Of a stretch of DNA of 22,405 bases, positions 2,912-22,257 are shown one piece after another. The notes under the pieces are model-generated. The model saw only the letters and a list, made by a program, of their open reading frames with translations. It made no database searches and had not been told where the DNA came from. A program made the translations under genes and the position numbers. Positions within the stretch are counted from its first letter, which is position 1, and the number at the start of each line of letters is the position of its first letter. The stretch comes from a virus: positions 1-22,405 of IMG/VR virus record IMGVR_UViG_3300036761_000774; one strand, given 5' to 3'.

Positions 2912-2935
2912 ACATGAATTTCTTAGGAGGATGTC

Positions 2936-3208
2936 ATGAAGCACACCGTTGAAATCGAATTTGAAACCACCGTAAAGGCCGTCCTCAGGGGCCAGGACCT
3001 GACCGCATCAGTCACCGTCAGCCTGCCCTATGGATCGAAACGGTCTGTGTCCGTCTCAGAAGAAAGCCTCCCCGCTGAGGCGACCGCGGCGCTGAAAGAG
3101 GCGTTGGGAAATCTCCAAAGCGCAGTCCTGCCGAAATTGCTGGCACGCGCCCAGGCGGCCGCTCACCAGGCCCTGGAAGTAGCGGTTCGTAATAACGAAA
3201 AAGTCTAA
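2936..3208 (+). CDS. Small unknown phage protein
   Basis: A 90-residue protein with an AGGAGG ribosome binding site 5 bases before its ATG, so expression is well supported. The N-terminal half (residues 1-45) looks like alternating beta strands (KHTVEIEFETTVKAVLRG); the C-terminal half (47-85) is an amphipathic, Ala-rich helix (ATAALKEALGNLQSAVLPKL). I recognise no family. It follows the terminase by 24 bp, in the stretch where lambda goes directly to gpW, so it belongs to the extra cassette at 2936-6461. A small virion or assembly factor is possible, but nothing in the sequence demonstrates it. Confidence 0.72.
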   Translation: MKHTVEIEFETTVKAVLRGQDLTASVTVSLPYGSKRSVSVSEESLPAEATAALKEALGNLQSAVLPKLLARAQAAAHQALEVAVRNNEKV

Positions 3209-3249
3209 ATTCGAGACGACTTGCCATCCGTCGTTAACAAGGAGCTCAT

Positions 3250-4068: not shown

Positions 4069-4086
4069 TTCAGAAAAGGAAATCGC

Positions 4087-4671: not shown

Positions 4672-6461
4672 TGGCTCTCCCAGCCACTGACAATTTTAAT
4701 CGGGCCTCGCTGGGGCCGAAATGGTCGCTCAACACCGGAAGTCTCAATATCTACAATTCAGTTCAGATTCAGTCGGCTTCCAGTGGCGCAGAAACAGGCA
4801 TGGGTTGGAATGCGGATTCCTTCAATGCCGACCAGTATGCTTTCTTGACCCTTGCGAATAACCCTGTGGGTGGAGGCGCCATCGGTCCAGCCGCTCGCGT
4901 GGCTGTGGACGGAACGACAGATTCTTATTATTGCTGGTACGCTGATGCGGGTGGAACCTATCTGCAAAAAATGGTCGCCGGCACATTGACGCAGATCGGG
5001 ACGACGCTTGCCGGAACCGTGTCGGGCGACCTTCTCCGTCTGGAAGTGAGTGGAACTGGGGCCGGTTTCTCTTTGATTGGCTACCGAAATGGAGTCAATC
5101 AAAGATCCACGACCGGGAGCACGCACGCCCAGCATTCATCGGGTAGGGCGGGGGTTGCGGGCTGGGGAAGTGCATCGCCATGCACTCTTGGCGATACGTG
5201 GGAAGGTGGAAACTTAGGTGGAGCAACCACGTATCCGGTTTCGCTGGGCGGTGCTATTACGCGATCCGGCTCTCTGGTTCGATCTGAGTCGAAGGGCCTG
5301 CCTGGATCAATCAGCAGATCAGGCGGGATTTTGAAAATTACGAGGCGATCTATCGCCGCATCTTTGACCCCCGCGGGAGTGACGGTAAAGAGTCTGCCGC
5401 GAGGATATTCGGGCAATATATTTCCAACGGGCCTTTTTGTTCTCCAGGCGCAGAAGCCGCTGGGAGGGACAATTGCTCCCGGAGGCGCATTGGCGCGGAG
5501 CATGGAGCTTACTAAGACGGCTACACTTGGGCCCGTAGGTTCAGTAATCCAGCTCATCGGCCGGGTTTTTGCGGGGGCGGCATCTTCTGCAGGGTCATTG
5601 GCAAATGTCAAGACCAAACTAGTCTCATTCAGCGGCAGCTTGCCAATATATGGCCTCTTAAACAAAATTGTAAGTTCCCTTAAGACGGCGGCGATTGAAA
5701 GGGCGGGCAGCCTGATCGAGCAGATGAATCGAGTTTTCGTTGGCGCCGCATCGTCTTCCGGAGCCCTGATCAACATAAAAACCAATCTGGTTTCTTTTGC
5801 TGGAAGCTTGACGCCCGCTGGCGTTTTAGCGAAAGAGATCCTCAAGTCTTTGGCAGGATCTTTGACGCCGACAGGCGCAATCGCCTTTATGCAGTCACTC
5901 CTACGAAGTTTGTCGGGATCGATCAATCTCGCCGGCGCGCTGGCGAAGCAAGTAGGAAGGGCCTTTGCAGCAACCTTGACCCCATCTGGAATTGTTAACG
6001 CGGTCAAGCTCGCGGGGACTTATTTCTTGAGCCTGGCGGGTTCCCTGAATCCAACAGGGGCTATTCAAAGAAGCGTCGCGCGGACCTATTCCGGGCAAAT
6101 CCTGTCCACTGGCCTGTTCATTAAGAGCCTTGCGAGAACCTTCGCTGCGACGGCTTTGCTAGCTGGATCGGTCCTGACGGTCAAACTTTTTATTCTCGTT
6201 TTTTCGGGCGCGATCGCTGCCGCGGGGGCGCTGGAACGGGCGGTCAGCAAGACAATTCTAGGGACGGCAACGGCAACCGGAGCGCTGGCGAAGCATCTAC
6301 CGAGAAGTTTCGCGGGCGTCTTGTCCTTTAGCGGATTGGTCGATGCGATCAAGACCATTACTTCGGGGCCTCCCCGCCTGCATTCGATTTTGAGAATTGG
6401 CCGATCGGATAGAACGCTGCGGATCCGGCGCGAAGATAGAGATCTCGACATAAGGCCTTAA
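4671..6461 (+). CDS. Lectin-like phage surface protein with about 20 tandem 18-residue repeats
   Basis: A 596-residue protein in three parts. Residues 7-183 look like a concanavalin/LamG-type jelly roll: it opens with DNFNRASLGPKWS, has a typical YYCWYADAGGTYLQK strand and closes with LGDTWEGG. Residues 188-561 are about 20 head-to-tail degenerate repeats, mostly 18-20 residues, of the type S-[FL]-[AS]-G-[ST]-L-T-P-[TA]-G-A-[LI]-A-K-x-x-x-R. The last 30 residues are strongly charged (RIGRSDRTLRIRREDRDLD). The architecture suggests a carbohydrate- or surface-binding head on an elongated repetitive stalk, such as a fibre or head decoration. Function is inferred. The location next to packaging and head genes rather than tail-fibre genes is unusual. 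The start overlaps the upstream stop (TAATG), and the next gene begins directly after its stop. Confidence 0.8.
   Translation: MALPATDNFNRASLGPKWSLNTGSLNIYNSVQIQSASSGAETGMGWNADSFNADQYAFLTLANNPVGGGAIGPAARVAVDGTTDSYYCWYADAGGTYLQKMVAGTLTQIGTTLAGTVSGDLLRLEVSGTGAGFSLIGYRNGVNQRSTTGSTHAQHSSGRAGVAGWGSASPCTLGDTWEGGNLGGATTYPVSLGGAITRSGSLVRSESKGLPGSISRSGGILKITRRSIAASLTPAGVTVKSLPRGYSGNIFPTGLFVLQAQKPLGGTIAPGGALARSMELTKTATLGPVGSVIQLIGRVFAGAASSAGSLANVKTKLVSFSGSLPIYGLLNKIVSSLKTAAIERAGSLIEQMNRVFVGAASSSGALINIKTNLVSFAGSLTPAGVLAKEILKSLAGSLTPTGAIAFMQSLLRSLSGSINLAGALAKQVGRAFAATLTPSGIVNAVKLAGTYFLSLAGSLNPTGAIQRSVARTYSGQILSTGLFIKSLARTFAATALLAGSVLTVKLFILVFSGAIAAAGALERAVSKTILGTATATGALAKHLPRSFAGVLSFSGLVDAIKTITSGPPRLHSILRIGRSDRTLRIRREDRDLDIRP
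4689..5219 (+). other. Concanavalin/LamG-like domain region in the repeat protein
   Basis: This encodes residues 7-183. The DNFNRA opening, regular Gly-flanked strands and final GDTWEGG are what I would expect of a LamG or ConA-like lectin sandwich. Identification is by pattern only. Confidence 0.6.
5232..6353 (+). repeat. Tandem protein repeat array, about 20 units of roughly 18 residues
   Basis: Units begin near residues 188, 209, 227, 245, 263, 283, 299, 319, 338, 355, 375, 393, 413, 431, 454, 472, 490, 511, 528 and 546. The core is aromatic/Leu-[AS]-G-x-[LI]-x-[PA]-x-G-[AS]-[LI], then a variable stretch ending in Lys or Arg. DNA copies are diverged, so the array is conserved at protein level rather than being a recent DNA duplication. 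Some units are 16-17 or 20-23 residues. Confidence 0.8.
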
Positions 6462-6968
6462 ATGCCAAGCGACGCACAAGGCGAATATCGATTGAAACGG
6501 GTCGGGGAAAAGGCCGATTTCACGCTCGAATGGAGCGAGGAAATCGAAACCGATCCGATCAGCTTAAGTTCCTGGACCGTTCCGGCTGGTATCTTTCAGG
6601 ATACCCCGAATCCTTCGAAGACGGACACCACAACCACCATTTGGTTGAGCGGAGGCACGGCGGGAAATGAATATCCGCTCGTCAATGTCGTCACCACGGT
6701 TGGCGGGAGAGTCTATCCTCGAGTCCTGCGCATCAAGATCCTGGCCGATGTATTAAACGTTCCTCAGCCCGAGGAGTTCACCAGCGGCCAACTGACTGCG
6801 CTGCGCAATGCCTACGCCAATGGGGCACTCTCGGTCGAGTATGACGGCAAGCGCGTGGTCTATCGCACGCTTTCTGATATCGAACGCGTGATTTCGGTCA
6901 TTGAAGGCAAGCTAAATGGCACTCCTGCCAGGAACCGCTTCAGCCTGGCATCCTTTCGCAAAGGGTAA
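6462..6968 (+). CDS. Head-tail joining protein: beta-rich N-terminal domain fused to gpW-like domain
   Basis: A 168-residue protein with two recognisable parts. Residues 10-94 form a beta-rich domain with the pattern DFTLEWSEEI, ISLSSWTV, TTTIWLSGGTAGNEYPLVN and RVLRIKI, a small structural domain found in many phages and usually encoded separately. Residues 106-160 (TSGQLTALRNAYANGALSVE, then DGKRVVYRTLSDIERVIS) match lambda gpW, a 68-residue protein that completes the portal vertex and lets tail-joining proteins bind. The order terminase, gpW, portal is that of lambda. ATG 6462 directly follows the upstream stop. Fusion of the two domains in one open frame is seen directly; the benefit is unknown. 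Confidence 0.82.
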   Translation: MPSDAQGEYRLKRVGEKADFTLEWSEEIETDPISLSSWTVPAGIFQDTPNPSKTDTTTTIWLSGGTAGNEYPLVNVVTTVGGRVYPRVLRIKILADVLNVPQPEEFTSGQLTALRNAYANGALSVEYDGKRVVYRTLSDIERVISVIEGKLNGTPARNRFSLASFRKG

Positions 6969-6971
6969 ACA

Positions 6972-7259
6972 ATGAGCAGCCTCATTCTCCCGACTATAGC
7001 CATGAAGGTTATCAACAAGAGAGGGGGAATAGAAACTCGCCGCCGTGCGGGTTGGGGATTTTATCGAAAGGTGAGCGGATCCGATTATGTGGTGTTCGTT
7101 TGCCCACATTGTAGCCGGCGCAACAAACGATCGATACATGAAGCGATCTCGCAATTGCCGGGCCTAGCAGAATTCAAGTGCAAAATCTGTCGCGGGCGGA
7201 GTCAGGTAAGGCTCGAAGCCCTCATCGAGTCAGGGGGGAACCTTGAACTGGCTCGATAG
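6972..7259 (+). CDS. Small zinc-ribbon protein
   Basis: A 95-residue basic protein with four cysteines in two CxxC pairs, CPHC at residues 44-47 and CKIC at 70-73, the spacing of a zinc ribbon. The N-terminal 40 residues are Arg/Lys-rich. It starts 3 bp after the gpW gene stop with AAAGGG just upstream, and its end overlaps the portal start by 17 nt, so it is translationally embedded in the head operon. Lambda has no counterpart between W and B. A zinc-binding nucleic-acid or protein contact role follows from the motif; any specific partner is unknown. Confidence 0.72.
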   Translation: MSSLILPTIAMKVINKRGGIETRRRAGWGFYRKVSGSDYVVFVCPHCSRRNKRSIHEAISQLPGLAEFKCKICRGRSQVRLEALIESGGNLELAR

Positions 7260-8742
7260 TGCGGTGGCATGGGCATCTCCAGAGCGGGGCCTAAAACGCA
7301 TCCGGGCCCGGGCGGCTGCCTCCCATTTGCGCTTAGCCTATGATGCGGCCCAGATGGGGCGCCGCACGGAAGGATGGTTTTCCAGTGGCGCTTCAGCCAA
7401 TGCGGAACTCGGCATGGCTCTGCATCGGTTGCGGGAGCGATCGCGCGAGCTGGTACGCAACAACCCCTATGGCAAAAAAGCCTTGAACACCATCGTCAAT
7501 AATGCCGTAGGGACGGGCATCATTCCCCAGGCGGCTAGCGGCCTGGGGACGCTCGATGAGCGAATCAATTTGGCCTGGAAAGATTGGTCGCAGCAGTGCG
7601 ATGCCGATGGACAGCTCGATTTCTACGGCCTGCAGGCCCTGGCGACTCGCTGTGTGGTGGAATCCGGAGAATGTCTCATCCGTTTTCGAGTTCGCCAGCC
7701 GCAGGATGGATTGAAGATCCCATTGCAACTCCAGGTCCTCGAGCCCGATTATTTGGACAGCTCGAAGAACCAGTCTCTGGCCAATGGATATATCCTGCAA
7801 GGCATCGAGTTCGACCCAATCGGAACGCGGCGGGCCTATTGGCTGTTCAATCAGCATCCGGGCGAGGCCGTCATCACCAATTTCGGGAGAAGTTTCCTCT
7901 CGAAAGCGGTTCCAGCCAGTGAAGTGCTCCACATTTACGTCAAAGAACGTCCCGGTCAGATGAGGGCAGCCCCCTGGATGGCGCCTTCGATGATTAAAAT
8001 GAAGGACCTGGACGATTACGAGATTGCCGAGCTGGTGAGGAAGAAAATCGAGGCTTGTTTTGCAGCTTTTGTCACCCAATCGGAAGGCCTGGAGGGGCCC
8101 TCGATCGGTGTGGCCGCTCCCGAAACTCCACCCGTTCCGCGCAAAGAGCAATTCGAGCCCGGGATGGTGGAATATCTGAAACCGGGCGAGGATGTGAGAT
8201 TCGGGGAGCCAGCCAATGCCTCTGGGTATGGGGATTATACGCGGTCACAGCTTCGCGGTGTGGCGGCCGGGATCGGGGTCACTTATGAGCAGCTCACGGG
8301 TGATCTTTCGAATGTCAATTATTCAAGCTATCGGGCCGGGCACTTGGAATTCCGGGCCTTGATGGAGACCTACCGTTGGATCACCTTCATCCCCATGTTC
8401 TGCCGGCCGGTATGGAACCGGTTCATCGATATCGCGGTGGTGGCTGGAATCCTGGAGCAGATTGACTATCGCTCCAAATGGACCGCTCCGGCCTACCAGT
8501 CGATTGATCCGTTGAAGGATTCGCAAGCCGTTCGCATGCGGATCCGCTCGGGTCTGGTGACGTTGCCGGAAGCGATCGCTCAGGAAGGTTACGATCCTGA
8601 CGAGCAACTCAACGAGATCGAGGCTACCAACAAAATCCTCGACGCCAAAGGCATCGTGCTCGACTGCGATCCCAGGAAGGTGGCCGATAGCGGCAAGGTG
8701 CAGACCAGTCCTCCCGAAGAAACTGCGCCGCCGGCGCCCTGA
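7243..8742 (+). CDS. Portal protein (lambda gpB family)
   Basis: A 499-residue portal; lambda gpB is 533. The dodecameric portal sits at one capsid vertex and is the DNA channel to which terminase and then gpW and FII connectors dock. Family features include LRERSRELVRNNPYGKKALN near residues 63-82 followed by VGTGIIPQ, a WKDWSQQCDADGQLDFYGLQ block, LQVLEPDYLD, VKERPGQMRAAPW, and GVTYEQLTGDLSNVNYSSYR around residues 347-366. The C-terminus carries the lambda-like DPRKVADSG. The start is TTG 7243 behind AGGGGGGAA, overlapping the zinc-ribbon gene by 17 nt. Short Pro-rich tail (SPPEETAPPAP). It is followed by a strong terminator before the capsid gene. Confidence 0.95.
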   Translation: MNWLDSAVAWASPERGLKRIRARAAASHLRLAYDAAQMGRRTEGWFSSGASANAELGMALHRLRERSRELVRNNPYGKKALNTIVNNAVGTGIIPQAASGLGTLDERINLAWKDWSQQCDADGQLDFYGLQALATRCVVESGECLIRFRVRQPQDGLKIPLQLQVLEPDYLDSSKNQSLANGYILQGIEFDPIGTRRAYWLFNQHPGEAVITNFGRSFLSKAVPASEVLHIYVKERPGQMRAAPWMAPSMIKMKDLDDYEIAELVRKKIEACFAAFVTQSEGLEGPSIGVAAPETPPVPRKEQFEPGMVEYLKPGEDVRFGEPANASGYGDYTRSQLRGVAAGIGVTYEQLTGDLSNVNYSSYRAGHLEFRALMETYRWITFIPMFCRPVWNRFIDIAVVAGILEQIDYRSKWTAPAYQSIDPLKDSQAVRMRIRSGLVTLPEAIAQEGYDPDEQLNEIEATNKILDAKGIVLDCDPRKVADSGKVQTSPPEETAPPAP

Positions 8743-8773
8743 AGCTTAAAGAAAATTCATCTCTCTATTTGCA

Positions 8774-8798
8774 GGCCGCTCCGGGCGGCCTTTTTTAT
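8774..8798 (+). terminator. Rho-independent terminator after portal gene
   Basis: A GGCCGC stem (8774-8779), a 5-nt loop and GCGGCC (8785-8790) are followed directly by six T residues. It sits in the 72-bp gap between portal and capsid genes. Only 16 bp separate it from the capsid start, so no obvious promoter fits after it; this implies partial read-through or antitermination. Confidence 0.85.
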
Positions 8799-8814
8799 TG
8801 GGAGCGGAGGTTAT

Positions 8815-10815
8815 ATGAAACCGAAGAAGAACAGCCAGAGTCCGGCGGACGCCGAGGGCAAGGGCAGAGAACAGGCCAGGCAGATCCCCCGTGAGATATT
8901 TGCTGCTTCCATCACGCCCGAATCCGTCAATGCAGAGAAGCGCTCGGTGGACGTCATCTTCTATACGGGCGTCAAAGTCGCGCGTTATAACTGGGAGCTC
9001 GGGGATTACTGGCTCACCCTGGACCTGAAACCCGGATCGGTCCGTCTCGGCCGCTTAAATAATGGAGCGCCGGTTCTCGACAGCCACTCCGACTGGAGCC
9101 TTTCCGACGTGATTGGCGTGGTGGAAAAAGGCTGGATCGAGGATGGCAAGGGCAAAGCCACTTTTCGCTTTTCCGATCGCGCCGAAGTCGAACCCATTTG
9201 GAACGATGTGAAAACAGGGATCCTCCGCAACATCAGCATGGGAATAGTCGTCCACGCCAAGAAGGACGTCACGCCCAACGATGAAGCCGTCAAACAATTT
9301 CTGGCGACGGATTGGGAGCCGATGGAGATCAGTGTAGTCCCAATCCCAGCCGATCCCGGGGCAGGGTTCCTCAGCTTTGAGGACCCCGATCCGGATATCT
9401 CACGGGCAACAGCCCCGAAAAAGGAGAGCATCATGGACGAAGAAAACAACAAGCCAGCGGTGGCTGGTGCGGGCGCCGATGGGAATCAAGCCCGTGAACA
9501 GGAGCAGTTGAAAGAAGCCAAAAAGTTGGCTGCAAAACAAGGAGCAGAAGAGGAACGGCAGCGCGCCGCGGGAATCCGGCAAGCAATGAAGGCCGCAAAG
9601 TTGGATGAAACACTGGCCGATGACATGATCGCTGCCGGAACGTCTTTGGCTGATGCTCGCACCAAGATCCTGGAGAAATTGGCGGCCCAATCACAAGACA
9701 ATCCCATCCGCAGCCAGGTGGATATCGTGCGGGATGCCGACATGGCCCGCATGACATCAGTGGAGAATATGCTTCTCCATCGCATGGATCCCACCAAGTT
9801 TAAACTGGAGGCAGGCCGCGAATATAACGGCCAGTCAATGCTCGATCTTTGCAAGATCTTCCTCAGCGCTCATGGAATTCGTTACCAGGGGCAATCAAAG
9901 CTGGAGATCGCGCGTTTGGCCCTTCAGACCACTTCAGATTTCCCTCTCCTTCTGGCCAACGCTGGCACCAAGCGCTTGCGCGACGCCTACCAATCCGCCC
10001 CCACTACCTATCGGATCTGGGCGCGGCGAGCTCCCAATGCCCCGGATTTCAAGCAAATGCTGGTGGTCAATCTGGGCGGAACCCCAGACTTGCTCCAAAC
10101 CAATGAACATGGGGAATTCAAGTACGGAAGCATGAGTGAGGCTGGCGAAGTCTATGCAGTGCTCACTTATGGCCGCATCGTGGGTTTCACCCGCCAGGCC
10201 ATCATCAATGACGATCTCCGTGGCTTCGATCGTCTGCTCGTCGGGTTCGGCAATTCAGCAGCTCGCCTGGAGAACCGCACCGTTTATGCTCAGCTCACAG
10301 CCAATGCCAACCTGGCTGACGGAATCGCGCTCTTTGCAGCCTCCCCTCAGCATGGCGGGAATCTGGCCGCCGCGGCGGCCGTGATTTCGGTTGCCAGCCT
10401 AACGGCCGGACGGGCCGTGATGCGCCGGCAACTCGGCCTTCAAGGCGAAGAACTGAATCTCGCCCCTCGCTTCCTGCTTGTGCCAGCCACCATCGAGCAG
10501 GTGGCCTACCAATACACCTCCGCTCAATTTGTTCCCGCTACTCCGGCCACCATCAACGAGTTCAGGACTGGCGGGCGGACCGCTCTCGAACCGGTCGTGG
10601 ATTCCGTGCTCGATAGTAACAGTCCTAGCCACTGGTATCTGGCAGCCGATCCGGCTCAAATGGACACCGTCGAATATTGCTATCTGGACGGCAACGAGGG
10701 GGTCTATACCGAACAGCGGCTGGGCTTCGAAGTGGATGGAATGGAAATCAAGGCTCGATTGGATTTTGCGGCCAAGGTCATCGATTATCGCGGCCTCTAT
10801 TTGAATGCCATCTAA
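8815..10815 (+). CDS. Prohead protease fused to major capsid protein
   Basis: A 666-residue polyprotein-like fusion. Residues 25-190 form a prohead protease of the HK97/U35 type: candidate catalytic His91 in LDSHSD, Ser141 in NISMGI, and the downstream MEISVVPIPADPGA strand (Glu171) typical of the fold. Residues 207-300 are Lys/Glu/Ala-rich and probably coiled coil, fitting a scaffold (delta-domain-like) segment. From about 300 to 666 lies the major capsid protein of the Mu gpT-like/HK97-fold group: TSDFPLLLANAGTKRLRDAY, GRIVGFTRQAIINDDL, an LFAASPQHGGNLA strand-turn and the terminal YCYLDGNEGVYTEQRLGFEV to IDYRGLYLN. The protease would cut scaffold from capsid during maturation. GGAGG lies 4 bases before ATG 8815. 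A second strong ribosome binding site lies inside the gene. Confidence 0.93.
   Translation: MKPKKNSQSPADAEGKGREQARQIPREIFAASITPESVNAEKRSVDVIFYTGVKVARYNWELGDYWLTLDLKPGSVRLGRLNNGAPVLDSHSDWSLSDVIGVVEKGWIEDGKGKATFRFSDRAEVEPIWNDVKTGILRNISMGIVVHAKKDVTPNDEAVKQFLATDWEPMEISVVPIPADPGAGFLSFEDPDPDISRATAPKKESIMDEENNKPAVAGAGADGNQAREQEQLKEAKKLAAKQGAEEERQRAAGIRQAMKAAKLDETLADDMIAAGTSLADARTKILEKLAAQSQDNPIRSQVDIVRDADMARMTSVENMLLHRMDPTKFKLEAGREYNGQSMLDLCKIFLSAHGIRYQGQSKLEIARLALQTTSDFPLLLANAGTKRLRDAYQSAPTTYRIWARRAPNAPDFKQMLVVNLGGTPDLLQTNEHGEFKYGSMSEAGEVYAVLTYGRIVGFTRQAIINDDLRGFDRLLVGFGNSAARLENRTVYAQLTANANLADGIALFAASPQHGGNLAAAAAVISVASLTAGRAVMRRQLGLQGEELNLAPRFLLVPATIEQVAYQYTSAQFVPATPATINEFRTGGRTALEPVVDSVLDSNSPSHWYLAADPAQMDTVEYCYLDGNEGVYTEQRLGFEVDGMEIKARLDFAAKVIDYRGLYLNAI
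9421..9435 (+). promoter_or_regulatory. Internal ribosome binding site and in-frame ATG in the protease-capsid gene
   Basis: AAGGAG at 9421-9426 is followed 6 nt later by ATG 9433, which is codon 207 in frame. This start would give a 460-residue scaffold-plus-capsid product without the protease. Sequence and spacing are seen; use of the site is inferred by analogy with lambda, where Nu3 starts inside gene C. Confidence 0.6.
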
Positions 10816-10826
10816 GGACAGGGATT

Positions 10827-10859
10827 GGGCAGGGGGCGCTGGTGTGAGGCCTCCTGCCT
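10827..10859 (+). other. Possible hairpin in the capsid-DUF2190 gap
   Basis: GGGCAGGGG (10827-10835) can pair with CTCCTGCCT (10851-10859), including two G-U pairs, around a 15-nt loop. No T tract follows, so I do not call a terminator. The rest of the 88-bp gap holds only the GAGGT ribosome binding site at 10892-10896. Confidence 0.3.
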
Positions 10860-10903
10860 CTTATCCCTCGTCTCGCACCTCAATCTAATGTGAGGTCAAG
10901 CCT

Positions 10904-11674
10904 ATGAAAAGTTTCATACATGAAGGAGACATCCTCGAGCTGCTGGAAAGCACGCTCGATCATCCGGTTCATGGTGATGGCCTGGTGGATTCTGGCGATC
11001 CTGTCAGAGTTGGATTCATCACCGGCGTCGCTTGCGATTCGGCTGCGGCTGCCACCGATTTGATTCGCGTGGTAGTCAAGGGAGTCATCAGCCTGCCCGT
11101 CGCTGGTTCGAATGGAGCGGTGCAAGCTGCTGTGGCGCCAGGCGACGTTCTCTATTTCGATCTGGCTGGCGCCGGCGTTAAGGCAACCCAGACCTTAACC
11201 AACGATGCGGGTGGTGATGTAGCTCCCAACGATACCGTCACCATTGGCTTCCCCGGCCACACGACCGTCTACAAATTTGTGGCGGCTCTCACCGCGCCGG
11301 CAGTGGCCAATGAGGTCTTAATTGGAGGCAGCGCCGCTGAAACCCTCGACAATCTGAAGCTGGCTATCAATGGAGACACCGCTACCCTCGGAGTGAAGCA
11401 TCAATGTACGGCTCATCCAGATGTCGAGGCCACGACTAACACGAATACAACCCAGGTCATTGCAGCGAGGGTCACCGGAGCCGCTGCTAATAGCGTCGGG
11501 ACCACCGAGGCGGCCGCGCACGTGAGTTGGGGGGCTGCCGCCATGGCGGGCGGTTTGGATGCCATTGGAACCATCAACAAAGATAGCGCTGGCCTGAAAT
11601 TCGGCGTGGCTCTCCAAGCGGTCGCTATCGGCCAGACCACCTCGATTCCGGTGAAAATCAAAAAGACTTTCTGA
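10904..11674 (+). CDS. DUF2190-type head protein with inserted beta domain
   Basis: A 256-residue protein. Residues 1-94 (MKSFIHEGDILEL, then RVGFITGVA, KGVISLPVAG, APGDVLYFD) and 220-256 (IGTINKDSAGLKFGVALQAV) align by eye with the whole of the next gene, a typical 110-residue DUF2190 protein. Members of this group lie next to capsid genes and are usually regarded as capsid decoration or stabilisation proteins. Residues 95-218 are an insertion with the features of a separate phage beta domain: VTIGFPGHTTVYKFVAALT, NEVLIGGSAAETLDNLKLAI, VTGAAANSVGTTE and a closing MAGG. GAGGT lies upstream of ATG 10904. The position equals that of lambda D/E. The decoration role is inferred from family and position. 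Confidence 0.8.
   Translation: MKSFIHEGDILELLESTLDHPVHGDGLVDSGDPVRVGFITGVACDSAAAATDLIRVVVKGVISLPVAGSNGAVQAAVAPGDVLYFDLAGAGVKATQTLTNDAGGDVAPNDTVTIGFPGHTTVYKFVAALTAPAVANEVLIGGSAAETLDNLKLAINGDTATLGVKHQCTAHPDVEATTNTNTTQVIAARVTGAAANSVGTTEAAAHVSWGAAAMAGGLDAIGTINKDSAGLKFGVALQAVAIGQTTSIPVKIKKTF
11186..11557 (+). other. Inserted phage beta domain within the first DUF2190 gene
   Basis: This encodes residues 95-218, which interrupt the DUF2190 fold relative to the neighbouring paralogue. The block VLIGGSAAETLDNLKLAI followed by ANSVGTTE and a Trp-Gly turn recurs, from memory, in many phage structural proteins as an autonomous module. Boundaries are approximate. Confidence 0.55.
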
Positions 11675-11695
11675 CGGCCCTTGCCGTCTCAATTT
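11672..11695 (+). terminator. Short hairpin terminator overlapping a stop codon
   Basis: GACGGC (11672-11677) and GCCGTC (11682-11687) flank a CCTT loop and are followed by TCAATTTT. The stem starts at the TGA of the upstream gene. The T tract is imperfect, so this is likely a weak or partial terminator between the two DUF2190 paralogues. Confidence 0.5.
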
Positions 11696-11713
11696 TAAAA
11701 CGGAGATGAAACC

Positions 11714-12046
11714 ATGAGAAATTTCGTTCAAGACGGTGACGTCCTCACGCTCACTGCACCCTATAATCGATTGTCCGGGCAAGCCGCATTAATCGGGACC
11801 GCGATTTTCGGCGTGGCGGCAAATGACGTCTTGCAGGCAGCCAGCGGAGAGTTCGTCACCGAAGGCGTCTTCACGTTGCCCAAAACAGCCGCCCTTGAGA
11901 TCAATATCGGCGATAAAGTCTATTGGGACGATGCCGCCAAGGAAGTCAACAAGACCGCCCAGGGGAACACCTATGTGGGAGTAGCGATTGCCCATGCGGC
12001 CAATCCTTCAGCCACAGCCGAAATTCGCCTCAACGGCGTCGCCTGA
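11714..12046 (+). CDS. DUF2190-type capsid-associated protein, second paralogue
   Basis: A 110-residue protein of the size usual for this group, with the characteristic opening MRNFVQDGDVLTLTAPY, then LIGTAIFGVA, EGVFTLPKTA, IGDKVYWDD and GVAIAHAA near the end. It shares the same strand order as the flanks of the upstream 256-residue protein, so the pair is a tandem duplication followed by an insertion in one copy. Location directly after the major capsid gene fits a head decoration or stabilising protein. A GGAG lies 8 bases before ATG 11714. Its TGA overlaps the next ATG (TGATG), giving translational coupling with the connector gene. Confidence 0.88.
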   Translation: MRNFVQDGDVLTLTAPYNRLSGQAALIGTAIFGVAANDVLQAASGEFVTEGVFTLPKTAALEINIGDKVYWDDAAKEVNKTAQGNTYVGVAIAHAANPSATAEIRLNGVA

Positions 12047-14612: not shown

Positions 14613-17600
14613 ATGGCTGACATCAAAGGTCCATCCATACGAATCACAGCGGATACCGCGCAGTTCGATAAGGAACTGCAGGGGGCGGTGAAGGGAATCA
14701 ATTCCCTTGGGCTGCAAGCCGACAAACTGGCCAAATCCCTCGGGGTGGAACTGTCTTCGGCGATCAGCAAGGACGTCGATAAACTCGCCTTACTTCAAGG
14801 CCACCTAGCCAAAGTGGGTGCCCCCGCGGCGGACCTGGAAAAGGTGACGCTGCGTCTTTCTGACGCTCAGAAGAAATTGGCCGATTCGGTCAATGAAGGG
14901 GCCTCGGGTTGGAGCAAGTTCGGAGATTTTGCCCGGACCTCCGGACCAGCCATCGCCGGGATCCTGGGCGGCATGGGCGCTGCTGTCATCTCTTTCGGCA
15001 GTAAAGCGGTTGACGAGTTTTCGAAGTCCCAGGTGGTAGCCGCGCAACTGGAAGCCGTCTTGCGGTCCACCGGTGGGGCCGCCGGCGTCACCAAACAGGA
15101 CGTCGAAGGGCTCGCTACTTCTCTTTCCAACCTCACGGGCATCGATGATGAGGCGCTGACCAGCGCGCAGTCCTTGCTCTTAACTTTCACTGGAATCGGC
15201 AAGGATATCTTTCCCACAGCTACCCAGGCAATCGTTGATATGGCCACCGCCATGAATGGCGGCATGATTCCTTCGGCCGAGCAGCTCCGCAACACCACTC
15301 TCCAGGTCGGCAAAGCCCTCCAGGACCCGATTGAAGGCCTCACTGCGCTCAAACGCGCCGGGGTCAACTTCTCTGAAGGACAGAAGCTTGTTATCAAAGA
15401 TCTGGTCGAGACCGGCCGAACGGCTGAAGCGCAGAGATTGATCCTCCAGGAGCTCGCCAAGGAATTCGGCGGCAGCGGCAAGGCTCTGGGCGAAACCTTC
15501 GCGGGCGCTATGGGGAAGATGCGCACCGAAGCAGGGAATTTAGAGGAGGCTCTAGGCAAGAAACTGGTCCCGGTCTTGAATGATGTGATGAATGTGGCAC
15601 CCAAGGCCGGCGCGGCTTTTCTGATAATGAAGGACGGTCTCGGGGGCCTGAACATTTCCACCGGCGAACTATTGATCGCTCTACCGGTCCTGAAATCAGG
15701 CATCACCGCGATAGTGGGAGCAGCCACCGCGGCGGCCCCTGCTTTGTTGGGGATGGGCGCTGTCGCTATGACCGCAACAGCCGGTTTCACTGCTCTAGCG
15801 GCCATCATCGGCTATTTTGGCGTTCAGTGGCGTCTCGCCGTGGCGGGGTGGGAAGATGCCAACAAAGGCCTGGATGAGGTGACCAACAAGCTCAATGCTC
15901 AGTTGGCCGAGATCGGCAAGAGTGTGGAGCGGGGCAGCCTCTCCTGGGAGGAATGGACCGAAAAAGTCAATAAAGCCGCCAAAGAGAATGCCGGACTGAT
16001 TGAGTCCAACGTCAAGGCCAAGAAAGCCACCGAAGATGCCGTTGTGGCTGCAGCCAAGCATAAAGAGGAACTCAAAAAACAAGCTGAAGCGGCCGCCAAA
16101 GCCGCCAAAGAGATCCAGGGATGGGGCTCGGCCATCGGCGTCACAATTCCGAAGCTCAAAGAGAATGTTGCCGAGGGCGAGAAGTATGTCGCCTACCTGA
16201 AAAAATCCGGGGCATCGGCGGTAGAAGTTCGGGATGCTGAAGACAAGCTCCGCGAAGCCAAGTTGCGGCTCACCGAAGCCCTCCATCCGGAGATCCAGGC
16301 CTTCAAGGACCTCGACAAGGCGATGATTGCCAACAATGCCACGGCCCTGGAGGCCTTGAATCGCAATGCCTCTCTGCAACAAATGCTCGGCGTTGAAATG
16401 CCGGATGCTCTCAAGCAAATCCCGCCCTATATCCAGGACGTGGATGCTGCCTATAAGCATCTGGGTATTACCTCGGAGGCGGTCCTTACCAAACAGGTGG
16501 AACAGAGCCAACAGGATTATCAAGCCATCGCCAAAAATGCCACCAGTTCGATTCGGGACATTGATGTTGCCTGGGTGGCCATGCGTGAGAAAGAGATGGA
16601 TCTGGCGCGCAAGACCGGCCAGGAAGTGACCGACGCCGAGAAGAGCGCGGTCGACGCCATGAAGGCCAAGTGGGGCGAGTTCGGCGACAAGACCAAAAGC
16701 ACCTTTGAGCAAATGGCCGCGATCGGGAAAAAACAAATCTCGACCATCGTCACCGATCTCTCCAAAGGCTTTGCGGATCTGCTCTTCGCTGCCGGGGATT
16801 TTGGCTCCAAGATCGTCGGCATGTTTAAGCAGATCGGCCAGGCCATCGTCCGGGCCTGGATCGAGACCGGCGTCATGGGATTGATCACAGGGAAAGGCTT
16901 CTCGGGCTTTGGTGGGTTCCTCTCCGGCATCATTGGCGGTATTACCGGCAAGGGTGGTGGCGGCGCTGCGGGGACGGCCAGCAGCTTATTCGGCCTGGGT
17001 GGGACTGCCGCCAGCGCTTTCGGAATCAAAGGCGGCCTAATCGGTGGCATCGGTAGCTTGCTCGGGATCGGCGGATCTTCTCTGGCCTTTGGCGGAGCAT
17101 CACTGGCTGGCCTGGGCGGTGCTGCTTTGCCGGGGTTCATGCTGGCAGCTCCCACAGTGCCGGGCCTGGCGGGCGCCAGCCTGGCAGGCGGAGCATCGCT
17201 GGCTGGCCTGGGCGGCGCTGCTTTGCCGGGGTTCATGCTGGCAGCTCCCACAGTGCCGGGCCTGGCGGGCGCCAGCCTGGCAGGTGGAGCAGCCAGCGGC
17301 GGAGGGATCATGAGCAGTATTGGAGGCCTCTTGACCAATCCCTGGACCGCCGCGATCGCGGGCGCCATCGTGGCCGGCATCCTCGGTTACAAATTCGCCA
17401 AAGGCAAGAATGCTTATGAAGCCGGCAGCATGGAAGTAGCACGGGATCTAGGAGGGGTTTCCTTTTCCAAAAACCAGATGAAAGAGTTTTATTCTTCGAT
17501 CGGCTTATCGGAGTCGCAAGCCTATGGAGTCCGGAAAGAAGTAGAATCCTCACCAAAATTTCTAGCTGAAGTCATAGGTCCTTTGGCCCAGCAGCAAGGG

Positions 17601-19013
17601 AAGATGCCTCAGCTCCTCGCTTCCCTGACCTCGGGCTATTCAGCGGCCTACTCCGCGGCCTTTGAGAAAGGGATGAAGACCGGGGACTGGAAAGATCTCA
17701 ACAAAGAATATGAGATCTGGGAATCCCACTTCACGGCCCTGGGCAAGATCATGCCCGATTGGAAGGACAAGCTCGCCGCGGTGACAAAGACCGAAGAAGA
17801 GAATGCTGCTGCCACGGCCGAAGCGGCTGCTCAATTCGGATCCCTGGCCGACCAGTTCCTCCAAACCGGGGAAATGTCTGATGATTTCAAGAAACAAATC
17901 ACTGCCGCCGGCGGATCCTTCGAAGCTTTTGATATCGCCTCCGGAGCCATTAAGAACCTGCAGGGCCTCAAGGGTGAATTCGCCGATCTGAAACAAGCCG
18001 TCGATGCTCTATTGCCTCCCGTCAAGACCTGGCAACAGCAGTTCATGGAAACCGGTATCATCACTGACGAGCTGGCGGCTAAGATCCAGGAAGCCGGCGG
18101 CAACATCGAAGATTTCAAAGCCTTCGCCGACGTCCGCAAGACCCAGGCCGATTGGACGAAGCTCAAAGACCAGTTCGACCAGACGGGCGAAGTCTCTGAC
18201 GAGCTGCTCTCCATCCTGCGCCGATTCGGGGATGCGGATACCCTGAGTGCGTTCGAAGCCCTGGTGAAACAGGCCAAAGAATCAGGCGTTTCTATCTTCG
18301 ACCTGGCCAAAGAGTCAGAGGCCGCCAATAAGACTATCCAGGACGCTTTTGGCCTCACAGGCACCGCCATCGACAAGCAAATGACCGATGCTGCCGGCGT
18401 ACTCTCCAGTACTCTTCAGACCATGGACGACAATCTCACCGCGGCCATCGATAAACTCCAGAAGGCCCTAGTGACGATGATTAAGGATCTCATCGATGTA
18501 CTGCTGGAGGTCCCCGGCGCGGCTGAGAAGGCTGCTGCCGACGCCAATTTCTTCTTGAACGGGATCAAGGACAAAACGGTCGACGTAGAGGTCGTGCTCC
18601 ATACTCCCAGCCCAGAAGAAATCGCCCAGATGAACAAGACGCTTTCAGGTCGCAGCGGCCAGCAAGACGGATCCAGGGTGACAACCCGCGATGTCACAAA
18701 TACCGGCGGAGAGACGACCGTCTATACGGGTGAGCGCACGAATCCTCCTCCCCGCACCCGTTTTGCCGCAGGGGGTTATGTCGACCAACCTACTGATGCC
18801 CTCTTGGGTGAAGCTGGGGCAGAGTGGGTGATTCCAGATAAGCTCCTGGCTAATTTCGCCCGGGCCCTGTCGGGCGGATCCACTCGTCGAGATGGCCGCT
18901 CCGGAGCCCAAATCAACCAGCAGATTACTTTGGTTAATCCCCCCGATCCCTGGGCCGTGCGAAAAATGATGGATCGAGTTAACGACAGTTTAGTTCTCGC
19001 TTTGAGCCAATGA
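14613..19013 (+). CDS. Tail tape measure protein
   Basis: A 1466-residue protein that sets tail length and is ejected with DNA during infection. Residues 8-100 open with the usual RITADTAQFDKELQGAVKG and LGLQADKLAKSL helices. A conserved tape measure domain (about 125-320) contains LEAVLRSTGGAAGVTKQDVE, TGIDDEALTSAQSLLLTFTG and MNGGMIPSAEQLRNTTLQVG. A hydrophobic segment (about 352-402) could span a membrane; 440-530 is strongly coiled coil (AAAKHKEELKKQAEAAAKAA). Residues 765-930 are Gly/Ala-rich with an exact 32-residue duplication (827-858, 859-890). Three diverged QFxxTG repeats start near 1081, 1143 and 1187. The C-terminal GGYVDQPTDALLGEAGAEWV is a typical closing motif. There is no Shine-Dalgarno site; the end overlaps the next gene (ATGA). 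Confidence 0.95.
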   Translation: MADIKGPSIRITADTAQFDKELQGAVKGINSLGLQADKLAKSLGVELSSAISKDVDKLALLQGHLAKVGAPAADLEKVTLRLSDAQKKLADSVNEGASGWSKFGDFARTSGPAIAGILGGMGAAVISFGSKAVDEFSKSQVVAAQLEAVLRSTGGAAGVTKQDVEGLATSLSNLTGIDDEALTSAQSLLLTFTGIGKDIFPTATQAIVDMATAMNGGMIPSAEQLRNTTLQVGKALQDPIEGLTALKRAGVNFSEGQKLVIKDLVETGRTAEAQRLILQELAKEFGGSGKALGETFAGAMGKMRTEAGNLEEALGKKLVPVLNDVMNVAPKAGAAFLIMKDGLGGLNISTGELLIALPVLKSGITAIVGAATAAAPALLGMGAVAMTATAGFTALAAIIGYFGVQWRLAVAGWEDANKGLDEVTNKLNAQLAEIGKSVERGSLSWEEWTEKVNKAAKENAGLIESNVKAKKATEDAVVAAAKHKEELKKQAEAAAKAAKEIQGWGSAIGVTIPKLKENVAEGEKYVAYLKKSGASAVEVRDAEDKLREAKLRLTEALHPEIQAFKDLDKAMIANNATALEALNRNASLQQMLGVEMPDALKQIPPYIQDVDAAYKHLGITSEAVLTKQVEQSQQDYQAIAKNATSSIRDIDVAWVAMREKEMDLARKTGQEVTDAEKSAVDAMKAKWGEFGDKTKSTFEQMAAIGKKQISTIVTDLSKGFADLLFAAGDFGSKIVGMFKQIGQAIVRAWIETGVMGLITGKGFSGFGGFLSGIIGGITGKGGGGAAGTASSLFGLGGTAASAFGIKGGLIGGIGSLLGIGGSSLAFGGASLAGLGGAALPGFMLAAPTVPGLAGASLAGGASLAGLGGAALPGFMLAAPTVPGLAGASLAGGAASGGGIMSSIGGLLTNPWTAAIAGAIVAGILGYKFAKGKNAYEAGSMEVARDLGGVSFSKNQMKEFYSSIGLSESQAYGVRKEVESSPKFLAEVIGPLAQQQGKMPQLLASLTSGYSAAYSAAFEKGMKTGDWKDLNKEYEIWESHFTALGKIMPDWKDKLAAVTKTEEENAAATAEAAAQFGSLADQFLQTGEMSDDFKKQITAAGGSFEAFDIASGAIKNLQGLKGEFADLKQAVDALLPPVKTWQQQFMETGIITDELAAKIQEAGGNIEDFKAFADVRKTQADWTKLKDQFDQTGEVSDELLSILRRFGDADTLSAFEALVKQAKESGVSIFDLAKESEAANKTIQDAFGLTGTAIDKQMTDAAGVLSSTLQTMDDNLTAAIDKLQKALVTMIKDLIDVLLEVPGAAEKAAADANFFLNGIKDKTVDVEVVLHTPSPEEIAQMNKTLSGRSGQQDGSRVTTRDVTNTGGETTVYTGERTNPPPRTRFAAGGYVDQPTDALLGEAGAEWVIPDKLLANFARALSGGSTRRDGRSGAQINQQITLVNPPDPWAVRKMMDRVNDSLVLALSQ
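17091..17282 (+). repeat. 96-bp tandem duplication inside the tape measure gene
   Basis: Copies 17091-17186 and 17187-17282 differ at only two positions (17102/17198 and 17120/17216), both silent. Each encodes 32 residues beginning GGASLAGLGGAALPGF. A degenerate fragment of the next copy follows at 17283. Exact codon phase preserves the frame. Confidence 0.93.
17853..18270 (+). repeat. Three diverged protein repeats in the C-terminal part of the tape measure
   Basis: QFLQTGEMSDDFKKQITAAG (residue 1081), QFMETGIITDELAAKIQEAG (1143) and QFDQTGEVSDELLSILRRFG (1187) share the pattern QF-x-x-TG-x-x-[ST]D-[DE]-[FL] followed by an amphipathic helix. Spacings of 62 and 44 residues differ, so these are old, reshuffled repeats. 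Confidence 0.7.
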
Positions 19014-19840
19014 AAAGCATCGCATGGATCTCTTCCGATGGCGATCGCCTGGAGATCCGCAACGGTAACGATCAGAATTACTACCTGAGCCAGATCACCG
19101 GCCTGAACTCGGCCGACATGGAAGTCCTCACCCAGCGGGCCCCATATCAGAGTGGGCGGACTTCCATTGATGCCTTGGTCAGATCGCGGAGCATCAAGTT
19201 TCGCCTGGTCATCCGCCAAACTTCGACTCTGGATCTAGAAGGGGCGCGCCGCTATATTGGCCGGATCTTTTCCCCTATTAATTATTTGGGCCAGGTGAAT
19301 CTGGGGCGTCTGGAATACATTCGGGACGACGATCTGGAATTTGCCATCGATGCGGTGCCTTCTGGCCTGGATATGCCGGGCACCTCTCCTTCGCGCGGGC
19401 CGCGCCATCAGTTGGCCAGCATCTACCTGGAATGCGAGGATGGGTTCTTTCGAGATCTTACCGCCTCCACCCAGGCCCTGGTCATCGATGTCAGCCAGGC
19501 GGTCTTGAATGTTGGCGACGTCCCGACTTTGCCTTTGGCTTCGATCACTGGCCCTTCTAATATCCCGCGCCTCTCGAATCTGAGCACCGGCAAATACATC
19601 GAATTTTCAGACAACCTGGCGGCCGGCTACCGGCTGGATCTGGATTTTCGCTTCGGGAAGAAAAGTGCCACTCGGGTCAAGATCTCGGACAGCACCACAA
19701 CCGACTGGTATTCCCTGATTAACCCAGCCTCCGAATGGTGGCCCCTGGTCGTGGGTTCGAACAGCATCAAACTTACTTCCCAGGACACCTCCGGATCTGC
19801 CGTCTTGACCTGGTCGAATCAATATCAATCCATCGCCTGA
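19010..19840 (+). CDS. Distal tail protein (Dit-like)
   Basis: A 276-residue protein directly after the tape measure, starting in an ATGA overlap with its stop. Dit forms a hexameric ring at the tail tip that joins the tube to the baseplate or central fibre. The N-terminal domain (1-110) has the usual order: SIAWISSDGDRLEIRNG, a QITGLNSADMEVLTQRAPYQ loop, GRTSIDALVRSRSIKFRLVI and a helix beginning LEGARRYIGRIFSP, with LGRLEYIRDDDLEFAIDAVP after it. The C-terminal domain (168-275) is a beta sandwich that recurs in the next gene. The role is supported by synteny and the N-terminal pattern. The frame stays open for 41 codons after the TGA, probably by chance. Confidence 0.85.
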   Translation: MKSIAWISSDGDRLEIRNGNDQNYYLSQITGLNSADMEVLTQRAPYQSGRTSIDALVRSRSIKFRLVIRQTSTLDLEGARRYIGRIFSPINYLGQVNLGRLEYIRDDDLEFAIDAVPSGLDMPGTSPSRGPRHQLASIYLECEDGFFRDLTASTQALVIDVSQAVLNVGDVPTLPLASITGPSNIPRLSNLSTGKYIEFSDNLAAGYRLDLDFRFGKKSATRVKISDSTTTDWYSLINPASEWWPLVVGSNSIKLTSQDTSGSAVLTWSNQYQSIA

Positions 19841-19849
19841 AATTGGCGA

Positions 19850-19865
19850 ACACAACATCTTGTGG
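19850..19865 (+). repeat. Palindrome copy 1
   Basis: Arms CACAA and TTGTG around CATC; the outermost base pair is broken (A against G). Centre sequence CATC is shared with copy 3. Confidence 0.8.
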
Positions 19866-19893
19866 CTTATCCAGCTCAGATTGACCAGGTCAA

Positions 19894-19909
19894 CCACAAC
19901 CTATTGTGG
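19894..19909 (+). repeat. Palindrome copy 2
   Basis: CCACAA and TTGTGG around CCTA, extended by one more A-T pair (19893 and 19910). It starts 44 bp after copy 1. Confidence 0.85.
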
Positions 19910-19937
19910 TCTGGGGAGCTCAAAGACTTCCAGGAAG

Positions 19938-19953
19938 CCACAACATCTTGTGG
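19938..19953 (+). repeat. Palindrome copy 3
   Basis: CCACAA and TTGTGG around CATC. It starts 44 bp after copy 2. The spacers before copies 2 and 3 are each 28 bp and share AGCTCA at the same offset. Confidence 0.85.
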
Positions 19954-19974
19954 TCAGTATCTGTAATTCATTCT

Positions 19975-21381
19975 ATGAGACTTGCAGAAGAGAGCTTTGA
20001 TTTAGGCTTTGGAGCTGTGGAAAACCATGGGGCCAGCGTCGACACCGTTGCGCCTCTCCAAGGGACAGGCTCCCTCAAATTTGACTGTGCCGCGGAAGAA
20101 TATGGGCTTCTCTACTGTGGCGGATGGCCGGTGGATCGCTTCTGGGTCGGCCTGCACTTCATGCTGGAGGATACCTTCCATCGTAATGGCCTGGTGGGTT
20201 GGATGACGGCCAATTATATGGGCGGCTATATCGTGCTCGAGAACCAGCGGCTGGTGGCCCATATTCCACCCTTCGACGTGGCCATCGGCAATCGCATTAT
20301 CCTGCCCGGCGTGCTTTACCATTTGCAACTGGAGATCTGGTTCGATCCCAGCCACGGATCCATCAAGGCCAAGCTCAATGAAGGGATCCGCAACGACATC
20401 AATTACTATCCGGATAATTCCGGTAACGTCAATCGGACCCCGGAGACCTATATTGAAAAAATCTGGTTGGGTTCCTTCTTCAGCCACGGCCAGGGCAATG
20501 GCTGGATTGACGACGTCGTTTTGAACCATTGGTGGTACCTGAGCACTACGGATTTCACCTGGCCTGGCCGCGTCACTCTCAGGTCCTCAGCTCCGATCGG
20601 ACTGGGAGCTTACGATGAATGGTCCAGCGCCGGCCTGACCGATAAATGGACCGAAACCGTCTGGCCTCCGAATGCTTTGCCCCATCAAACTCTGGGGCAA
20701 CTCAGTTTTCAGGGAGGAGCCGACCAGATCATTGACAACGTCGGGAATGTAGAAACTCCGCCGGCGCTGGACATTTATGGGCCGGCCTCCAATCCCAGCC
20801 TGGAGAACAAGACTACCAGCAAGACGCTCCAATTCAGCGGGGACGTGCCCAGTGGCTATTATCTGAATATCCAGATGGGGCCCGGCCGGACTTACCTGGT
20901 GAAGATCGCGGACAATTCCTATGAAGACTGGAATGGCCACATTTCAGCCCCGGTTGAGTTCTGGCAGCTCGCGGTTGGTATGAACACATTCCGAGCCGAG
21001 CCCAATGGAGCCCAGGTGCTGGCCGGTTGGATGCCTTATTATCGAGGCGATTGGCAGAGCTTCGTATTTGACGACGCCCCAGCCGCGCCCGTGGGCGGGT
21101 CTCTGGAAGCGATGAGCCATGTTTTCAAATGCAGGCTCAATGCTCCTCCGCCGCCGGAATCGTTTGCCAAGATCATTCCGGGCGTCAGATTCTTCCCTGA
21201 TAACTATTGGGGCAAATACTGGCAGCCGCAGACTGAGCACATTTATCCCCAAACTCAGCTAATGGCCATGCCGCATCGTATGCGGCGCAATCCCATTCAG
21301 GGCGGTCTCTGGGACCTGGCAGATATGCCGGCCATGGAATGCCTCTTCAAATATTCGAATCTAGTCAACCAGCAGGAGTAA
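19975..21381 (+). CDS. Tail-tip protein with lectin-like and Dit C-terminal-like domains
   Basis: A 468-residue protein from ATG 19975. The N-terminal part (1-200) resembles a concanavalin-type sandwich: EESFDLGFGAVENHGASVDT, then GTGSLKFDCA, FWVGLHFMLED, and a GNGWIDDVVLNHW strand near its end. Residues 259-360 are clearly related by eye to the C-terminal domain of the preceding Dit protein (NVGNVETPPALDIYGPASNP against NVGDVPTLPLASITGPSNIP, then TLQFSGDVPSGYYLNI against YIEFSDNLAAGYRLDL). The last 70 residues carry Trp/Tyr- and Pro-rich stretches. It probably attaches to the tail tip and contacts host surface glycans; this is inferred. The start is uncertain: GTG 19906 falls inside a palindrome, and neither start has a good ribosome binding site. 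Confidence 0.78.
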   Translation: MRLAEESFDLGFGAVENHGASVDTVAPLQGTGSLKFDCAAEEYGLLYCGGWPVDRFWVGLHFMLEDTFHRNGLVGWMTANYMGGYIVLENQRLVAHIPPFDVAIGNRIILPGVLYHLQLEIWFDPSHGSIKAKLNEGIRNDINYYPDNSGNVNRTPETYIEKIWLGSFFSHGQGNGWIDDVVLNHWWYLSTTDFTWPGRVTLRSSAPIGLGAYDEWSSAGLTDKWTETVWPPNALPHQTLGQLSFQGGADQIIDNVGNVETPPALDIYGPASNPSLENKTTSKTLQFSGDVPSGYYLNIQMGPGRTYLVKIADNSYEDWNGHISAPVEFWQLAVGMNTFRAEPNGAQVLAGWMPYYRGDWQSFVFDDAPAAPVGGSLEAMSHVFKCRLNAPPPPESFAKIIPGVRFFPDNYWGKYWQPQTEHIYPQTQLMAMPHRMRRNPIQGGLWDLADMPAMECLFKYSNLVNQQE

Positions 21382-21384
21382 GGC

Positions 21385-22257
21385 ATGGGCTTCACGAGGG
21401 CCAACAAGAATCCTAATTGCACCAACGTGGCGGCTTTTAAGGCTTGGGCCCAGTGGATGGGCGATGAGATCGTCAATCGCGGCTGGGTGCGCACCGGTGA
21501 CACCGGCCAGGCTGATTGGCCCAATATTGTGGCCGTCCCCAGCGCCGCAGGAACCGTCTGGGAGGTCTTTCGCGCCAACGATTCCCTCCAGGCCACGATG
21601 CCCATGTTCCTCTATCTCAGTTATTACGCCACCACCAATTCCCCTCGGCTGCAGGTGATGCTCGGGATTGGGACCAATGGAGCGGGGAGCCTCATTTATC
21701 CTTGCCTCAGCGCCAACAGTCTCCCGGCCGGAGCCTCGGCTGACGATAATCCGCGGGATTGTGTTATCTGCGGAGATGCTGGCTTTTTGACGGTTCTGAT
21801 GTTTCGGGACGCCTCGGATCCCAACACGTTCACTTTCGCTTTCTGTGTAGACCGTAGCCGAGATGAAACCGGAGCTCCCACCGACGAGTATATTGGCGGC
21901 TGGGCTTTTGGAAACAATGGGCACCGCTGGCATGCTAATTGCCCGAAGCCGGGAACTGGCACCAAAACGGCCTGGAGCACCGATATAGGAGTTTGTTCCC
22001 TGGCCTTTGTGGGGCAGACGGCCAACTGGAATTTCCAGGGAAACGTGGCAATTTCGCCAATCTTTCCAGCGCCCGGTTTCCTCGGCAATCCGACGTTGGG
22101 AATAGTCTGTTGCCGTGAAGCCGATGCCAATGAGAATGAGCAAAAGACGGTCAATATCTATGGGGCCAATCACAACTACCTTTTCAGCAAGGCCACCTCT
22201 GTTAAGAGTTGGGCCGGATCTGGTACTACCTCCGCCTTCGGCGTGCTGATGGAATGA
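21385..22257 (+). CDS. Phage virion protein with DTGQ-type N-terminal motif
   Basis: A 290-residue protein with AGGAGT before ATG 21385, 3 bp after the upstream stop. The N-terminal block AFKAWAQWMGDEIVNRGWVR followed by TGDTGQADW, then TVWEVFRANDSLQATMPMFL and SPRLQVMLGIGTNGAG, is a pattern I associate with uncharacterised tail or virion proteins of many phages. The rest is beta-rich (DCVICGDAGFLTVLMFRD, FTFAFCVDRSRDETG). Cysteines are more frequent than in neighbours. The next gene shares the DTGQ block, so this is the first of a tandem pair. Location after the tail-tip genes suggests a fibre or receptor-binding component; not proven. Confidence 0.78.
   Translation: MGFTRANKNPNCTNVAAFKAWAQWMGDEIVNRGWVRTGDTGQADWPNIVAVPSAAGTVWEVFRANDSLQATMPMFLYLSYYATTNSPRLQVMLGIGTNGAGSLIYPCLSANSLPAGASADDNPRDCVICGDAGFLTVLMFRDASDPNTFTFAFCVDRSRDETGAPTDEYIGGWAFGNNGHRWHANCPKPGTGTKTAWSTDIGVCSLAFVGQTANWNFQGNVAISPIFPAPGFLGNPTLGIVCCREADANENEQKTVNIYGANHNYLFSKATSVKSWAGSGTTSAFGVLME

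Follow-up and report, generated by a model that had tools for sequence, protein, structure and literature searches.

The question raised by this locus is what three 16-bp palindromes, repeated at an exact period of 44 bp, are doing between two tail genes of a phage in which no RNR gene was recognised. The window, that is the whole 22,405-bp stretch of DNA analysed here (IMG/VR record IMGVR_UViG_3300036761_000774, positions 1 to 22,405), carries the palindromes at starts 19850, 19894 and 19938, and the coordinates and sequences given in the initial annotation were confirmed, as was the placement between tail genes. The upstream gene (19010–19840, plus strand) codes for the distal tail protein Dit (Pfam SPP1_Dit, 7e-8; phrog_33, 1e-19) and the downstream gene (19975–21381, plus strand) for a second tail protein whose C-terminal part is Dit-like (phrog_33, 2.7e-6; phrog_5577, 4e-6; Pfam below cut-off), followed by a codirectional gene with no family match (21385–22257, plus strand). 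The whole array is held by the 134-bp intergenic gap (19841–19974) between the TGA stop codon of the Dit gene (19838–19840) and the ATG at 19975. The gene strand has no open frame that crosses the whole gap, and two in-frame starts of the downstream gene, GTG at 19906 and TTG at 19948, overlap boxes 2 and 3.

Box 1 (ACACAACATCTTGTGG, 19850–19865) and box 3 (CCACAACATCTTGTGG, 19938–19953) each match the NrdR core CACWANATNTWGTG at 12 of 12 positions, in agreement with what had been proposed for these two copies, and are identical to each other at 15/16 positions, the first base pair of box 1 being broken by A in place of C, as already noticed. Box 2 (CCACAACCTATTGTGG, 19894–19909) has perfect arms and a deviant centre, reading CCTA where the core has NATN, and scores 11/12. 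As box 2 is without the conserved centre A, neither 44-bp pair of the window is made up of two perfect boxes, and the perfect ones, 1 and 3, are 88 bp apart. The two 28-bp spacers (19866–19893 and 19910–19937) were correctly reported to share AGCTCA at the same offset (a run of 6, p = 0.006) and have an overall identity of 11/28 (39%, p = 0.06). Because of this shared hexamer, a 44-bp unit may have been duplicated to build the array, with the boxes kept and the spacers drifted, and the equal spacing could be inherited in part from such a unit. Throughout the 22,405-bp record, at least 10/12 matches to the core are reached at the three boxes and nowhere else. First-order Markov simulations give 0.05 expected sites with at least 11/12 matches per window, and two such sites within 60 bp of each other appeared in 0 of 300 simulations.

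NrdR senses dATP and represses the genes for ribonucleotide reductase (RNR). The published NrdR box, acaCwAtATaTwGtg, is paired at integral helix turns (Rodionov and Gelfand 2005, as relayed in PMC4009431). For the NrdR proteins of four species both boxes were needed, with binding at spacers of 14–17 bp and again at about 24–27 bp; E. coli NrdR binds most strongly at spacers of 26–27 bp, corresponding to periods of 42–43 bp, NrdR of both L. monocytogenes and E. coli binds well at 18-bp spacers (period 34), and the DNA is bound in the presence of ATP plus dATP and released with ATP alone (PMC12051234). Pairs four helix turns apart consequently exist and are bound, which disposes of the objection that NrdR boxes usually lie closer together (PMC12051234). 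The period in the window is 44 bp, or about 4.2 turns, compared with about 31–33 or 40–43 bp by measured NrdR binding, and the 28-bp spacer is 1 bp past the tested range.

Like the NrdR pair of a bacterial nrd promoter, the window array consists of 16-bp palindromes with the core CACWA-N-AT-N-TWGTG, at least two in number, and their separation by about four turns may be close enough to an integral number. It differs from such a pair in having three boxes, a 28-bp spacer, the deviant centre of box 2, a location in a phage tail operon, no adjoining nrd gene and none seen in the record. Since the neighbours are tail genes and no RNR family match was obtained among the window proteins scanned, the array was filed as an NrdR-type operator and not as an nrd promoter operator. 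In the nrd promoter of P. aeruginosa an NrdR box lies between −35 and −10 (PMC4409342), whereas at the window array no sigma-70-like promoter, with a box flanked by −35 and −10 hexamers, was recognised.

In the comparison with related phage genomes suggested in the initial annotation, no relative with the same two flanking genes was found in IMG/VR or among GenBank phages, but motif pairs do recur in unrelated IMG/VR contigs. No relatives of Dit, the downstream gene or the tape measure protein were found in IMG/VR, and blastn with positions 18–22 kb of the window returned no relative among GenBank phages. A first IMG/VR scan for CACAA-N4-TTGTG pairs with a gap of 28–34 bp gave several unrelated contigs with a period of exactly 44 bp and boxes reading ACACAACATCTTGTGT. 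In further scans with the centre AT required, pairs of CACAANATNTTGTG (CACAA-N-AT-N-TTGTG) with a gap of 16–46 bp were present in 40 contigs and pairs of CACTANATNTAGTG (CACTA-N-AT-N-TAGTG, the classical box) in 21. Both controls, CACAA arms with a TA centre and swapped arms with the AT centre, give only one contig each, so selection acts on the arm sequence and its AT centre, not on palindromicity. Other CACAA-N4-TTGTG pairs without the AT centre (L004, L009/L014, L018/L007) were set aside as unrelated. The same was done with the 22-bp repeats in L013 (3927–4006), L016 and L017, four CACAA-N4-TTGTG palindromes at a 22-bp period inside a replication-initiator-like gene, perhaps origin iterons.

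Several cellular genomes have a CACAA-type pair at period 31/32 directly upstream of RNR genes. NrdR is encoded in all five cellular genomes checked, and the nrd promoters, examined in four of these five, mostly have weaker pairs at 31–33 bp. Most of the 40 viral records contain exactly two boxes, i.e. one pair, nearly all elements carrying pairs are devoid of RNR genes, and an ATP-cone is encoded in only 3/40 viral records, adjoining the pair in one. Pairs without an nrd gene are the rule among viruses, which removes the doubt about NrdR that had been raised from the missing nrd gene. The literature searched gave no account of NrdR boxes from phages or plasmids.

The 47 family-level periods fall at 30–35 bp (36 families), 41–44 bp (9) and 53–54 bp (2, one per box type), with none at 36–40, 45–52 or 55–60 bp though these were within the searched range; the period bins were named after the data had been seen. 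A Rayleigh test of the CACAA set gives R = 0.74 for 10.5 bp (p < 1e-5), with p = 0.007 for the spacings beyond the first turn, and published NrdR binding obeys the same helix-phase rule as these viral and plasmid pairs. A period of 43–44 bp is found in five other viral families and in Pseudomonas plasmids.

Two groups of relatives serve as natural experiments on the spacing. Two phages of about 73% identity (L006 and L059) have kept both boxes in the TerS–TerL gap at periods of 44 and 34 bp, respectively, the gap sequence itself being barely alignable. Conjugative Pseudomonas plasmids possess a conserved pair at 44 bp, with the period of the YC-AE1 plasmid being 34 bp, exactly 10 bp shorter, and their W positions change only from A to T or from T to A, which fits NrdR since its consensus allows A or T there. 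Spacers that change by one turn while the boxes are kept are the behaviour of a protein bridging two sites on one DNA face. The pair is absent from TerL relatives of the L006 phages, namely Pelagibacter phages and phage DSL-LC04, and in phage 023Pt_psg01 a single full box follows the upstream gene, with a long hairpin and no second box. In the Pseudomonas plasmids (L023 7745–7802; L126–L129 and L131; mostly rep_cluster_428) the pair is located directly upstream of a small hypothetical gene. The 34-bp pairs from Bordetella petrii (L027 7658–7705) and a Burkholderia symbiont (L029 5434–5481) lie near a large helicase/methylase-like gene, which is typical of integrative elements.

As to the genomic setting of the recurrent arrays, 10 of the 23 CACAA clusters have a TerS, TerL or portal gene at a distance of up to about 1 kb, and several CACTA contigs are likewise near a terminase or portal gene; by an informal estimate for contigs of at least 15 kb, with no matched background, the CACAA type has 7 such cases where about 2 would be expected, and the CACTA type shows no surplus. 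A box is embedded between −35 and −10 of a near-perfect sigma-70 promoter, between TTGACA and a TATAAT-like hexamer, in L066 (8741–8786), in L051 (2055–2150) and L058 (1290–1385), and in L060 (3807–3852), an arrangement like that of the P. aeruginosa nrd promoter (PMC4409342), and no promoter was seen at the other 44-bp arrays. The embedded boxes and the proximity to terminase genes point to NrdR as a putative regulator of phage genes in cis. The inovirus-like contigs L045 and L055, in which the pair sits between two convergent gene ends with the boxes fully conserved, have a setting that points to titration as a possible function. The R. albus prophage (L058/L030) has a third box 32 bp further on. 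In several large phage contigs (L041, L044/L062, L091, L094) the pair is near a NAD-dependent DNA ligase-like gene, identified by a family match for L041 and by eye for L091 and L094.

NrdR was taken as the binder because of the box consensus, the bound spacer ranges, the pairs upstream of RNR genes and the presence of NrdR in 5/5 genomes; both its binding to the window array and the direction of its effect are what we infer from these comparisons. The initial annotation had listed an operator array for a phage or a host regulator, of which the latter is favoured by the AT centre, by W positions that accept A or T, by the pairing and by the whole-turn spacing, with NrdR being the best candidate. 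That the window array is an NrdR-type operator we regard as quite probable, and that it serves the NrdR of the host, most likely acting in cis, in a phage showing no nrd gene, as fairly probable. Given an NrdR-type operator, cis control would be slightly favoured, and pure titration, although less probable, would still carry considerable weight.

The proposed mechanism is as follows. With plentiful dATP, an NrdR tetramer would bridge two or more boxes on one helix face, about four turns apart, and with falling dATP it would let go of them. In cis, the array would repress the following tail genes until phage replication drains dATP, either because an internal promoter that has escaped recognition is blocked or because the bound array forms a roadblock within the late operon. 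Upon departure of NrdR, the host nrd genes and the NrdR-gated phage genes would be turned on together, and each replicated genome copy would add NrdR sites, resulting in some titration away from the host nrd promoters. Cis control and titration would both result from a single binding event. Control in cis of the second Dit-like gene and the genes following it is favoured because the array fills a codirectional tail-operon gap, while titration remains a strong rival because no promoter is recognisable at the window array.

The array might instead be an NrdR decoy with no role in cis, the rising phage copy number titrating the few host NrdR tetramers so that host RNR is derepressed and more dNTP is made, which we consider rather unlikely. 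A decoy would be in keeping with the 44-bp arrays at which no promoter was seen, that of the window included, with the conserved pairs at the convergent gene ends of L045/L055, with exactly one pair and no RNR in most records, and with mobile-element boxes that are closer to consensus than the own nrd boxes of three hosts, a difference partly due to the search mode. However, a pure decoy has no need for the observed clustering near terminase genes and promoter regions. Strong induction of the NrdR regulon was reported in pneumococci infected with phage SpSL1 (PMC6755750), where, as proposed here, phage infection is linked to NrdR control of dNTP synthesis. This derepression shows that NrdR does sense infection and could be read in favour of a decoy, but SpSL1, unlike the window phage, has no NrdR-box pair, so the effect there has to have another cause, such as a drain of dATP, which is sufficient by itself; derepression needs no decoy and SpSL1 gives it no support.

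Still less probable is an operator for another widespread regulator with an NrdR-like site, CACAA-S-AT-S-TTGTG, paired at 34, 44 or 54 bp in phages and conjugative plasmids. A different binder is possible because periods of 34, 35, 43, 44 and 54 bp, found in 12/28 families of the CACAA type against 0/19 of the CACTA type (p = 0.0006), occur in mobile elements only, with centres mostly CATC/GATG, while nrd promoters in these hosts are at 31–33 bp; in the cellular genomes scanned, periods of 34 and 44 bp were never found upstream of nrd genes. Nevertheless, the elements share no gene able to encode such a regulator, which could therefore only come from the host, as a protein of near-universal occurrence, the A/T swaps in the plasmid relatives are those the NrdR consensus allows, and L. 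monocytogenes and E. coli NrdR bind well at 18-bp spacers, which give a period of 34.

RNA hairpins setting mRNA processing or translation between the two tail genes, another of the initial options, are very improbable: a stem of 6 bp capped by a 4-nt loop could form at each box, but the gap folds only mildly better than shuffled sequences (z = −1.9), with box 1 pairing with box 3 instead of three hairpins being formed, and what the relatives preserve goes beyond pairing to sequence and helix phase, with no compensatory arm changes seen that preserve pairing but lose CACAA/TTGTG. A known RNA element was rejected, as no Rfam covariance model matched up to E = 1. A neutral remnant of tandem duplication, suggested by AGCTCA as part of a duplicated 44-bp unit, or a site at which tail modules are exchanged by recombination, as initially listed and compatible with the different relatives of the head and tail modules, is likewise very improbable and hardly agrees with spacers at 39% identity between boxes that stay at 15/16 and with the recurrence of the same pair in unrelated contexts, and nothing in support of the recombination site as such was found. 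A CRISPR array, requiring repeats of at least 21 bp, unrelated spacers and cas genes, was dismissed for three 16-bp palindromes in a tail operon, and a DnaA-box reading was rejected as well.

Returning to the NrdR-type operator, mobile elements are known to use operators of host repressors, for example LexA-controlled prophage promoters. The window array would be alike in that a mobile element reads a physiological signal of the host via a host repressor, with the difference that the signal would be the dATP pool, not DNA damage. It is conceivable, although we stop short of calling it probable, that RNR-less phages and conjugative plasmids commonly carry operators for the dATP sensor NrdR, using their own dATP drain as a clock for packaging and structural genes or drawing NrdR away from the nrd promoters of the host. 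Binding of NrdR to these arrays would mean that phages and conjugative plasmids, while lacking its usual target genes, have co-opted a near-universal bacterial sensor of the nucleotide pool. This would give a simple answer to how an RNR-less phage times late expression to replication or secures dNTP, NrdR-box pairs away from nrd genes would mark mobile elements, and the one-turn spacer changes would be natural experiments on the NrdR tetramer.

With regard to the host, a portal relative was found in 53/349 Pseudomonadota genomes and 0/350 Chloroflexota genomes, and the latter group was rejected. The head genes point to a presumable host from Pseudomonadota, a phylum in which NrdR is usual. In 20 Pseudomonadota prophage regions with a portal identity of 43–51%, the head module is shared and the tail module is not, and the NrdR pair is absent from all 20 of these regions with related head genes. 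The phage is a mosaic of a head module (window 436–12043), including a gpA-type terminase, a lambda-type portal, capsid and decoration proteins with 40–51% identity to Pseudomonadota prophages, and a tail module (window 14613–22257), of which the tape measure protein and Dit have remote relatives only, Dit pointing to Paenibacillus and Methanoculleus phages at less than 30% identity. Within the head module, a single 666-aa open frame (window 8815–10815) combines a prohead protease (Peptidase_S78, at cut-off) with the capsid protein (Phage_capsid_4).
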